From the NCBI GenBank assembly GCA_030447865.1, contig JAUJOD010000001.1, positions 854,909 to 918,908 of the forward strand: 64,000 nucleotides of DNA, written 5' to 3'. Of the stretch, positions 43,425 through 46,548 are shown piece after piece. This DNA is from Nocardioidaceae bacterium (GTDB taxonomy: Bacteria; Actinomycetota; Actinomycetes; Propionibacteriales; Nocardioidaceae). The notes under the pieces are model-generated. The model did not search any database, was not told the DNA's origin, and was given only the letters and a program-made list of their open reading frames with translations. The position numbers were made by a program, and so were the translations under genes. Positions within the stretch are counted from its first letter, which is position 1. The number at the start of each line of letters is the position of its first letter.

Positions 43425-43455
43425 GCAGTCATTGAGCGGGTGGCACGGCTGAGAG

Positions 43456-43529
43456 TGGCCAGGGCCGGGATCGAACCGGCGACCTTCCGCTTTTCAGGCG
43501 GACGCTCGTACCGACTGAGCTACCTGGCC
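43456..43529 (-). tRNA. tRNA-Phe (GAA)
   Basis: A 74-nt cloverleaf is read on the minus strand. The acceptor GGCCAGG pairs with CCTGGCC and the discriminator is A. The anticodon loop CTGAAAA gives GAA, and the T arm is GCCGG-TTCGATC-CCGGC. The 3' CCA is not encoded. Asp and Glu tRNA genes lie about 2.8 kb upstream on the same strand. Confidence 0.96.
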
Positions 43530-43588: not shown

Positions 43589-43680
43589 GCCCGAAGTCTA
43601 TCCGATCTCGACCTGCTGGCCTTGCGGTGATTGCGGTAACGTTCGACGACCGAAGACGCCTACGTAGAAGGAGAAGACCC

Positions 43681-43923
43681 ATGGCGACCGGAGAAACCGG
43701 GTTCGATGATGTGTCGTACGACCTGATCTCTGTGCAGTACCACTCGCTCAAAGCGGGCCACGACTACGGCCAGTACGTTCGCGACGCCGAGAACGCTGGG
43801 CGCACTGACATCGCTGACTTCTTCCGCAGCATCATGGAGGAGGACTCCGCCCGCGCCGCCAAGTGCCACGAGTTCCTCAAGGAGCTCAGCGGCAGCGACG
43901 AGTCAGGTCCCGCGCTTACCTGA
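43681..43923 (+). CDS. Small helical protein, possibly ferritin-like
   Basis: The 80-residue protein is predicted to be two long helices: SYDLISVQYHSLKAGHDYGQYVRDAENAG and DIADFFRSIMEEDSARAAKCHEFLKEL. The spacing of Glu, Asp and His resembles half of a ferritin-like four-helix bundle, so a dimer could bind metal. This is only pattern likeness. ATG at 43681 has AAGGAG 8 nt upstream, which rules out the longer frame. It lies between tRNA-Phe and the convergent CDGSH gene, whose iron-sulfur context makes an iron role thinkable. Confidence 0.75.
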   Translation: MATGETGFDDVSYDLISVQYHSLKAGHDYGQYVRDAENAGRTDIADFFRSIMEEDSARAAKCHEFLKELSGSDESGPALT

Positions 43924-43961: not shown

Positions 43962-44156
43962 CTACCAGTTCCTCTTGGCCGCTTCCTCGGTGACCACCTT
44001 GTGGGTGCCGTCGCACCAGGGTGCAAGCGACGAACGGCCGCACCGGCACAGCGCCACGCACGGCCGGCGTACCTCGTGGGCCACGCCGGCCTCGTCGACC
44101 ACCTCGTCAGCACCGCGCACCAGCAGCGGACCGTCGGGGCAGACGGTGACCGTCAC
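43962..44156 (-). CDS. CDGSH-type iron-sulfur protein
   Basis: The 64-residue protein has the motif CRCGRSSLAPWCDGTH, three Cys and one His that bind a labile [2Fe-2S] cluster (mitoNEET-like). Such proteins act in redox sensing or iron-sulfur transfer. GTG at 44156 gives VTVTVCPDGPLLVRG, the expected first strand; a longer form to 44216 overlaps the upstream gene. It starts 26 nt after the glycosyltransferase gene and is the last of three genes in a row on this strand (HDO enzyme, glycosyltransferase, CDGSH). Confidence 0.9.
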   Translation of the reverse strand: MTVTVCPDGPLLVRGADEVVDEAGVAHEVRRPCVALCRCGRSSLAPWCDGTHKVVTEEAAKRNW

Positions 44157-44182
44157 CGACCTGGGGCTTCGCCGCCGCCAGG

Positions 44183-45223
44183 TCACGACCCGGCTCCGCT
44201 CATCGCCGGGTGGCACGGGCAGGCCCGTTCGGAGCAGTCAGCGGTGCCAAGATTCCGCTCACGATGGGCCGCCAACGTGAGCCGCTTTCCGGCGTACGGC
44301 ACTCCGCCCCGCACGCGCCACCCAACCGCCGCCCAGGAGCACACCGCCCGCTCGGTGACCCACACTGGTGCCCACAACGCCGCGGTGGCCGGAAAGACAT
44401 GGGCACCGCCTTGTCGCCGCCGGCCCAGCTCCGCCGCCGCGACCAGCGCGAGGCCAACCGCACCAGCCGTACGCCGACCGGCTGGGCGCCGCGCGGCCCA
44501 CAACGCCGCCGGCAGCACCGCGAGCTCAACGGCGAACCTGCCCGGCTGAGCGAAGCTGTCGTAGGCCTGCCGGACCCGCTGCCGCCAAAAGTGCGCAGCG
44601 GTGGGCGGTTCGCGCCGCACGTACAGGGCTCGGTCATGCTCCACTCGGCCGCCGTGCGCGCTGATCGTGCGCAGCAGCTCGAGGTTCTCGAACAGCACGG
44701 CGCCGCAGTACTCACCTGCGGGCAGCGCCGAGCGGCGGATCGCCACGGTGCCAGCGAAGTCATGCCCGAAGGCGCGGTTCAGCAGGCTGCGGGCGGTGTC
44801 CCAGCGGGCATGCCACGGCAGCGGGCGGAAGTAGTTCTGCGGCACGACAGCGTCGGCGGTCTGCAGACGTGCCACCAGCCGCCGTAGCGTCTCATCGTCG
44901 TAGCGCACGTCGTCATCGGCGATGACCACCAGGTCGCCGGACGCCACCGCCAGCCCGTCGATGACGCCGGCGACCTTGCCGTTGAGCCGGCTGGACTTCA
45001 CCGGCAGGTGCGTGGTGAAGCTGCTCCAGGCGTCCCGGTGCCGCTCGAACACGGGCGTCGGTGAGCCGTCGGCGACGACCACCTCGAGCCGCTGGCTCAG
45101 CCAGCGCAGGTACGCCGTCAGGTCCTCGTCGGCTGGACTGCTGAGGCGGATGGGCAGCACGTACGACGTTCCCGGCAGCCACGCTGACGCCTCCGACGGC
45201 GCGTGCATGCTGGCTGCGCTCAC
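44183..45223 (-). CDS. Family 2 glycosyltransferase
   Basis: This is a GT-A fold transferase of about 346 residues. The N-terminal nucleotide-sugar domain has VVADGSP and the metal-binding VVIADDDVRYDDETL, followed by an acceptor region with FENLELLRTISAHGG. A C-terminal part has hydrophobic stretches (about 240-310) that suggest membrane association. GTG at 45223 overlaps the upstream HDO gene's TGA in GTGA, so it is coupled to it. ATG at 45208 is an alternative. The sugar and acceptor are unknown; linkage with two iron proteins is unusual. Confidence 0.85.
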   Translation of the reverse strand: MSAASMHAPSEASAWLPGTSYVLPIRLSSPADEDLTAYLRWLSQRLEVVVADGSPTPVFERHRDAWSSFTTHLPVKSSRLNGKVAGVIDGLAVASGDLVVIADDDVRYDDETLRRLVARLQTADAVVPQNYFRPLPWHARWDTARSLLNRAFGHDFAGTVAIRRSALPAGEYCGAVLFENLELLRTISAHGGRVEHDRALYVRREPPTAAHFWRQRVRQAYDSFAQPGRFAVELAVLPAALWAARRPAGRRTAGAVGLALVAAAELGRRRQGGAHVFPATAALWAPVWVTERAVCSWAAVGWRVRGGVPYAGKRLTLAAHRERNLGTADCSERACPCHPAMSGAGS

Positions 45224-46254
45224 CCTGACGCCAGCTCGACCATCGGCCGCAGCAGGGCGCTCCGACCACCACGCCAAGAGTCGAGCAGCCGCCCGGCGGC
45301 TAGACCGTCGATGGCGAGGCACGTCGCGGCACCGAAGAGCACGTCCGGCTCGCATTCCGGCTCGTCGGAGACGAGGGCGCCGCACATCTCCCGAACGGCC
45401 ACCTGCTCGTGTACGGCGTCCGCCTCGACGTGCTCGTCGAAGTAGCGCGCGGCCTCGTCGCCGTACCCCAACCGGCGCACGCCGGCGGCATAGCGGCGGT
45501 TCGGCAGCGCGCTGGTGGCCTCGAACGCCGCGAGGTGCCCGGCCGCCGCGCCCCGCAGGCGCCGGTGCAGGCCGAACAGTGACATCGCGTTGCTGGCCGC
45601 GAGCGTGTAGCCGGGCACCACGTCGACGTAGGCGCCGTACGTGCTGTCGAGGCCGCAGCGCGTCATCGTCTGAGCGAACAGGGTCGAGTGCATGTCGCCC
45701 GCCCGGCCCGCGCCGTACTCGTCGAACTGGATCTCCATCAGTGCGACCTTGGCGCGTCCGCGCAGCCGTGGGACCGCCCAGGTGTGCGGATCGGCCTCTT
45801 TGAGGTGGTAGACGCTGCGGTGGACAAGCAGCTCACGGAGCTGTGTGGTCGTGATCTCGCGTTGCACGTACTGCGCGAGGCGAGGTGAGTCGTCGTCGCT
45901 CATCATGGCGAACAGCCGCTCGGCGATGGGCTCCTCGATGTTGAGCCGTTTCTCGACTTCCACGCGGGTGAGTTCCCGCAGCTCAGCCTCGAAGCGCCGC
46001 TCGAGGTGGCCCCTGACCGCTATCACCTGGGGTGACCATTCGGCTCGCGGGTCCACATCGTCGAAGCCCTGGTAATGCAGTTCGTACAGCAGCCAAAGCG
46101 CCAGCTGGGCATCGTCGCAGTCCAGCAGCGGGCTGGTGTGGGAGTCAACTGCCCCTGTCACCTGATCGACAGCTAGGCCGACGTCCACCCCTCGCAGGCT
46201 TTGGAGAGCCTCGGTGATCGGGCCGCGCGGCTCAGGCAACCGCATGCGGCTCAC
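45220..46254 (-). CDS. Iron-dependent heme-oxygenase-like (HDO) redox enzyme
   Basis: The 344-residue protein recalls the iron-containing redox enzyme family, with a heme-oxygenase-like fold holding a non-heme di-iron site. A group of acidic and His residues spaced like HDO ligands is seen: E174 and D178/E179 in LMEIQFDEYG, H189, E245, and H275/D279/H282 in DEHVEADAVHEQ. Characterised HDOs cleave or oxidise C-C and C-N bonds in natural-product pathways. The reaction here is unknown. The start is GTG at 46254 or ATG at 46245; neither has a strong ribosome site. It is the first gene of the three-gene operon and lies just after tRNA-Asp. Confidence 0.82.
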   Translation of the reverse strand: MSRMRLPEPRGPITEALQSLRGVDVGLAVDQVTGAVDSHTSPLLDCDDAQLALWLLYELHYQGFDDVDPRAEWSPQVIAVRGHLERRFEAELRELTRVEVEKRLNIEEPIAERLFAMMSDDDSPRLAQYVQREITTTQLRELLVHRSVYHLKEADPHTWAVPRLRGRAKVALMEIQFDEYGAGRAGDMHSTLFAQTMTRCGLDSTYGAYVDVVPGYTLAASNAMSLFGLHRRLRGAAAGHLAAFEATSALPNRRYAAGVRRLGYGDEAARYFDEHVEADAVHEQVAVREMCGALVSDEPECEPDVLFGAATCLAIDGLAAGRLLDSWRGGRSALLRPMVELASG

Positions 46255-46328
46255 CCGGGATTGGCCAGCGCGTCATGGCGCAAGGGTACAAGGCAGCAGT
46301 TCTTGTCCACGCCAGCAAGCGGCAGCAG

Positions 46329-46402
46329 CGACCCCGACGGGACTCGAACCCGCGGCCTTCGCCGTGACAGGGCGACGCGCTAACCAGCTGCGCTACGGGG
46401 CC
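46329..46402 (-). tRNA. tRNA-Asp (GTC)
   Basis: A 74-nt cloverleaf lies on the minus strand. The acceptor GGCCCCG pairs with CGGGGTC, and discriminator G73 is as expected for Asp. The anticodon loop CTGTCAC gives GTC, and the T arm is GCGGG-TTCGAGT-CCCGT. No CCA is encoded. It lies 73 nt downstream of tRNA-Glu. Confidence 0.96.
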
Positions 46403-46475
46403 AGGTTGTGGCGTTCCTGGGTCTCGACAAGCTCGACCGAGTACGCCGTTTCACGCGCCACGATAGCGCACGAAG

Positions 46476-46548
46476 CACCCCCAACGGGATTCGAACCCGT
46501 GCTACCGCCGTGAAAGGGCGACGTCCTAGGCCACTAGACGATGGGGGC
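46476..46548 (-). tRNA. tRNA-Glu (TTC)
   Basis: A 73-nt cloverleaf lies on the minus strand. The acceptor GCCCCCA pairs with TGGGGGT (with a terminal G-U), and the discriminator is G. The anticodon loop CTTTCAC gives TTC, and the T arm is CACGGG-TTCGAAT-CCCGT. It is first of the Glu-Asp pair. Confidence 0.96.

Follow-up and report, generated by a model that had tools for sequence, protein, structure and literature searches.

Oxygenases of the heme-oxygenase-like diiron (HDO) kind need to be re-reduced between turnovers; to our knowledge, most of these enzymes are uncharacterised and their natural electron donors, MboB aside, are not known. One of the closest described systems is the SznE/SznF step of streptozotocin biosynthesis, which we take to consist of a methyltransferase (SznE) and an HDO N-oxygenase (SznF) and to yield a sugar-containing final product; we know of no report of a CDGSH protein accompanying this pair. 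In the biosynthesis of mangotoxin, the HDO enzyme MboA depends on MboB, a flavin/Fe2S2 protein; the two have been described as perhaps the first dedicated pair of an HDO and its redox partner (PMC13185094). HDOs with identical ligands catalyse different reactions, i.e., the fold does not fix the chemistry (PMC13108848).

The window analysed here, the whole 64,000-nucleotide stretch of DNA, comes from a 3.1 Mb genome of a Nocardioidaceae-like actinobacterium. As claimed in the initial annotation, it contains three tightly packed genes on the minus strand, whose assignment to the HDO, family-2 glycosyltransferase (GT2) and CDGSH families agrees with their Pfam matches, and a small gene next to them:

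45220..46245, minus strand: heme-oxygenase-like diiron oxygenase (HDO), 341 aa from ATG 46245; PF14518, E=1.1e-59
44183..45223, minus strand: family-2 glycosyltransferase (GT2), probably membrane-associated, start GTG 45223; PF00535, E=4.1e-10
43962..44186, minus strand: CDGSH protein with a predicted [2Fe-2S] cluster, start GTG 44186 or GTG 44156; PF09360, E=1.6e-15
43627-43923, plus strand: small helical protein, convergent to the trio

The HDO stop codon and the GT2 start codon share a GTGA overlap (45220-45223), which is the 4-nt overlap described initially. The 26-nt gap described after the GT2 gene exists if the CDGSH gene starts at GTG 44156; with the start at GTG 44186, it is replaced by a second 4-nt GTGA overlap, with the GT2 stop codon. 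As for the HDO gene, ATG 46245, with the conserved MxLPxPRGP, appears more likely to be the start than the alternative GTG 46254. The dN/dS values obtained against the sister genome (G001) are 0.19, 0.18, and 0.06 for HDO, GT2 and CDGSH, respectively, which indicates that all three genes are maintained by purifying selection. Upstream of the trio, an open frame of 14 codons (MTRWPIPGEPHAVA; 46232-46276, minus strand) extends over the probable start of HDO at 46245; it is possibly a leader or coupling peptide, or a product of chance.

The metal ligands of the HDO protein (E153, E179, H189, H275, D279, and H282, numbered from GTG 46254), whose loss had been named initially as speaking against the proposal, are all invariant in an alignment of 17 diverse homologues. 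They make up a set of three histidines and three carboxylates on three helices, with the spacing E-x25-E-x9-H and H-x3-D-x2-H, which presumably equals that of E189/E215/H225 and H311/D315/H318 in SznF. The extra glutamate ligand of the SznF-type 3-His/4-carboxylate site is not present in this protein, glycine occupying the equivalent position, which indicates a 3-His/3-carboxylate enzyme. The best PDB folds for the structure model of HDO (pLDDT 90.7) are HrmI (E=8.7e-10, TM 0.75), SznF and RohS, which rank ahead of FlcD, CADD, BesC and PolF, all HDOs that cleave C-C bonds being lower in the ranking, and a profile search with the HDO sequence likewise placed these three at the top. The enzyme thus shares with HrmI, SznF and RohS (all PF14518) the fold and six metal ligands spaced as in SznF; however, it is only 16-22% identical to characterised HDOs, it has no conserved seventh carboxylate, and a Pfam search gave no match to the C-terminal cupin domain that SznF carries. 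It further differs from them in being paired with a CDGSH protein and in occurring in about half of the sampled Actinomycetes rather than in one rare pathway.

The CDGSH gene is the sole PF09360 gene in the genome, and its product, a protein of about 74 aa without flavin, has no other domain detectable with Pfam. All four cluster ligands are kept (C57, C59, C68, and H72 of CxC...PWCDGTH, counted from GTG 44216), the sequence conforming to the 3Cys-1His motif of CDGSH/NEET proteins, CxCx2(S/T)x3PxCDG(S/A/T)H (CRCGRSSLAPWCDGTH); judging from these ligands, the cluster is predicted to be a redox-active [2Fe-2S] one. In the GT2 protein, the motifs DDD (D97-D99 counted from ATG 45205, within ADDDVR), FENLEL and QRVRQ show little or no variation among 27 sequences, and the GT-A fold, the DXD motif and the catalytic acid region place it in family 2. 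Its model (pLDDT 89.9), which comprises a GT-A domain and C-terminal helices, most resembles PcManGT and dolichyl-phosphate mannose synthase, and this resemblance, together with the helices, suggests that the enzyme is probably membrane-associated.

The initial annotation had made its proposal depend on a conserved gene neighbourhood, and the linkage of HDO and CDGSH is indeed kept across relatives. The same 26 of 40 relatives possess both genes and the other 14 possess neither, as established by a genome-wide PF09360 search; the probability of such a match by chance is about 4e-11 (one in 40-choose-14), shared ancestry being ignored. CDGSH adjoins HDO in all of these 26 relatives except one (G026). 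Among 148 Actinomycetes genomes, HDO was found in 83, CDGSH in 93 and both in 72, the distance between them being at most 3 kb in 70 of the 72; since the sampled genomes are related, these counts do not represent independent events. A few loci from different scans belong to the same genome, and flanking gene calls are approximate. CDGSH lies downstream of HDO on the same strand in 35 cases, downstream on the opposite strand in 25 and upstream in 12, which indicates that the linkage has outlived rearrangement. In one genome (G013) a single frame runs uninterrupted through HDO and CDGSH, with a C-terminal part that aligned poorly, and in a Microbispora-like genome (G052) HDO and GT2 are joined in one frame via a low-complexity linker; each of the two joins was confirmed in a single genome or assembly. 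As in the MboA/MboB pair, the partner gene adjoins HDO and is co-inherited with it, and the grouping of HDO, CDGSH and GT2 is not by chance. Still, CDGSH is not universally needed, as follows from 11 genomes, all of one family (f18: L207, L209, L214, L218, L219, L224-L229), that have HDO but no detectable CDGSH; there HDO is adjoined by a putative methyltransferase of a different type, which has no Pfam match. The genomes with CDGSH only were considered as counter-examples, yet they mostly harbor proteins of the KPFCDGSHxxxGF type or double-domain ones, although the profile scores overlap. A larger conserved cluster was also sought, but no further neighbour is kept and the 145 neighbouring ORFs belong to generic Pfam families only.

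GT2 is present in 13 of the 148 Actinomycetes genomes, located between HDO and CDGSH in all 13. In 56 of the best 80 GT2 loci from GTDB representative genomes HDO is at most 3 kb away, and 54 of these contain CDGSH as well; about 20 loci have no known partner nearby; the HDO-linked loci belong to Microbacteriaceae, Micrococcaceae, Promicromonosporaceae, Streptosporangiaceae, Micromonosporaceae, Jiangellaceae, and others. Loci that lack GT2 frequently encode a SAM methyltransferase in its stead (HemK2/MTQ2- or PrmC-like), arranged, for example, as HDO-MT-CDGSH, and at no locus were GT2 and a methyltransferase found together within 3 kb of HDO. The coupled trio of the initial annotation is therefore a real linkage, but its invariant core comprises HDO and CDGSH only, GT2 being exchangeable with a methyltransferase. 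The possibility that HDO-linked GT2 is tied to one clade was rejected, as the GT2 tree requires about 10 switches between the HDO-linked and the unlinked state, at least five of them forced by supported branches; the linkage shows clustering, yet several gains or losses of it have occurred. Among the GT2 loci, a record titled Vibrio cholerae 35D (L088) contains an Arthrobacter-like GT2 with its neighbours and is probably a case of contamination or mislabelling, and in four others (L112, L120, L122, and L134; three Micromonospora and one Arthrobacter MAG) the sequence ends in the 3' part of GT2.

A phylum-wide genome sample yielded nine loci from four phyla (Actinomycetota outside Actinomycetes, Chloroflexota, Gemmatimonadota, and Acidobacteriota) in which the same GT2 family is found with YqcI/YcgG and DUF1989 proteins and without HDO:

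L083 (3209-5660), L071, L091, L132, L260, L263, L264, L268, L276: GT2 with GntA-like YqcI/YcgG and DUF1989

The YqcI/YcgG proteins from the four tested loci score 259-279 bits against NF041366 (cut-off 145), the NCBIfam model for GntA, which is the heme-dependent guanitoxin N-hydroxylase. An NF041366/PF08892 protein is absent from every HDO-GT2 locus and present only in HDO-free GT2 loci; we know of no description of such a GT2-YqcI/YcgG-DUF1989 cluster. The YqcI/YcgG heme N-hydroxylases (GntA, AglA, ChmN) are thus similar to HDO in adjoining this GT2 family, in four phyla, and differ from it in the unrelated fold, in the heme cofactor and in being accompanied by DUF1989, not CDGSH. By two independent lines, namely, the top matches of HDO by fold and by profile, which are all N-oxygenases, and the exchange of HDO for a heme N-hydroxylase beside GT2, N-oxygenation is favoured over C-C chemistry, one of the unusual kinds of reaction that the initial annotation had named for HDO enzymes. 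YqcI/YcgG enzymes hydroxylate guanidine N-H (PMC12866846), an enzyme of this kind replaces the HDO domain of SznF in the biosynthesis of chalkophomycin (PMC10849742), and DUF1989 includes carboxyguanidine deiminase (PMC11271267); from these grounds a guanidino or amine compound would be our best guess for the HDO substrate, and it is only a guess. The nine loci are few, and GT2 could act on something else there. By description, the methyltransferase-bearing loci resemble the SznE/SznF step, with the difference that SznF has a cupin domain.

Our best explanation, to which we give about an even chance, is that the trio constitutes one functional module made up of an N-oxygenase (HDO), its electron donor (CDGSH) and a capping enzyme (GT2). 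HDO would most likely use O2 for the N-oxygenation of a small amine or guanidine compound; the CDGSH protein, as a dedicated [2Fe-2S] partner, would supply single electrons by which the diiron site is re-reduced between turnovers; and the putatively membrane-associated GT-A enzyme would transfer a sugar to the product or to an intermediate close to it, the capping step being presumably performed in other actinobacteria by the SAM methyltransferase in place of GT2. The small modification pathway with CDGSH as an electron donor, proposed initially, is in line with these data; the conservation of the genes is shown, while the electron transfer, like the N-oxygenation, the substrate, the sugar and the sequence of steps, is inferred. 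MboA likewise has a dedicated [2Fe-2S]-containing redox partner encoded alongside; however, MboB is a flavin/Fe2S2 reductase (PMC13185094), whereas the CDGSH protein is small and, having no flavin, would have to be fed by a cellular reductase upstream. On an Azospirillum plasmid (L146, 5560-7307), an HDO gene and a Rieske 2Fe-2S gene have 4 nt in common; after MboB and Rieske, CDGSH would be a third kind of [2Fe-2S] partner for HDO. The broader reading, namely, that this is a widespread actinobacterial module in which a mitoNEET-type CDGSH protein is the dedicated donor of electrons to a diiron N-oxygenase and the N-oxygenated metabolite receives a sugar or a methyl group, depending on the lineage, is put forward more tentatively, its chances being somewhat short of even.

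The main rival to electron donation is the delivery of iron or of a cluster to HDO, with CDGSH acting as a chaperone that metallates the labile diiron site, which we consider unlikely. NEET proteins can transfer clusters, but in vitro free Fe(II) can be used to load HDOs, and we know of no HDO that needs a chaperone. HDO clusters are labile (PMC13108848), and the co-inheritance and the in-frame join fit such a function equally well; however, the parallel cases, MboB and the Rieske gene of Azospirillum, make use of electron carriers. It is also rather improbable that HDO performs C-C cleavage or desaturation of an amino acid or lipid, like UndA, BesC or MboA, with CDGSH giving the electrons and GT2 glycosylating the product or a lipid. 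UndA and BesC do have the same 3-His/3-carboxylate ligand set, GT2 resembles the lipid-linked glycosyltransferases DPMS, GtrB and ArnC, and MboA, the only HDO for which a dedicated redox partner is proven, is a desaturase, but the top structural and profile matches, all of them N-oxygenases, and the replacement of HDO by a heme N-hydroxylase beside the same GT2 argue against such chemistry.

In other settings, NEET proteins have been linked to the homeostasis of iron and ROS, and the presence of the module in about half of the sampled Actinomycetes is unlike that of a rare natural product; both would suit a stress-protection module, engaged in iron/ROS handling or in making a protectant, with CDGSH as a redox sensor or an agent of cluster repair. 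A comparable case would be DtpC of A. baumannii (dtpC-katE operon), an HDO-fold protein with intact ligands, which is needed for desiccation tolerance (PMC13232832). However, the operon partner of DtpC is a catalase, the paper mentioning neither CDGSH nor a glycosyltransferase, whereas no catalase is found among the 25 commonest Pfam families of the 145 neighbouring ORFs, and none in the conserved neighbourhood. A dedicated GT2 or methyltransferase, besides, suits biosynthesis better, and the protectant version is compatible with the N-oxygenase module, so that stress protection as such seems to us quite unlikely. As to the genes being mere neighbours without a joint function, actinobacterial genomes are gene-dense and most HDO-CDGSH loci are without GT2; yet the distribution and linkage over dozens of genera and the in-frame joins make this highly improbable, and for HDO and CDGSH the linkage already contradicts it.

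The three families are individually known. Our literature search, with subscription papers lying outside it, retrieved no paper on CDGSH paired with HDO-type enzymes or on the trio, in agreement with the initial remark that no described pathway with exactly this trio was known; the module is not described in the literature searched, its novelty being not proven. It is of importance that one small [2Fe-2S] protein accompanies a single HDO clade in different actinobacterial families, even to the point of in-frame joins. The HDO-CDGSH pair makes the question of HDO reduction directly testable and provides bacterial CDGSH proteins with a concrete partner. If the N-oxygenase reading is true, about half of the sampled Actinomycetes would make an unrecognised N-oxygenated metabolite. 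If the CDGSH protein is, in addition, the electron donor, it would be the first of its kind for which the driving of an O2-activating diiron enzyme is shown.

The small gene is present, convergent and encodes a helical protein, as described initially, but the suggested relation to ferritins did not reach significance (PF00210, E=0.055, below the cut-off for a match). We rejected it as a part of the system because it occurs in 5 of the 40 relatives, versus 26 for HDO, and in two of the genomes (G002 and G022) the homologues lie away from the trio; in a few Nocardioidaceae the protein is conserved at 72-83% and encoded elsewhere in the genome. The trio and the small gene are surrounded by a tRNA cluster, in the order tRNA-Glu, tRNA-Asp, about 2.8 kb, tRNA-Phe (43455-43529, 46328-46402, and 46475-46548). 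In at least seven relatives there is almost nothing between tRNA-Asp and the tRNA-Phe after it, which suggests that the block with the trio was probably inserted there in this genus.
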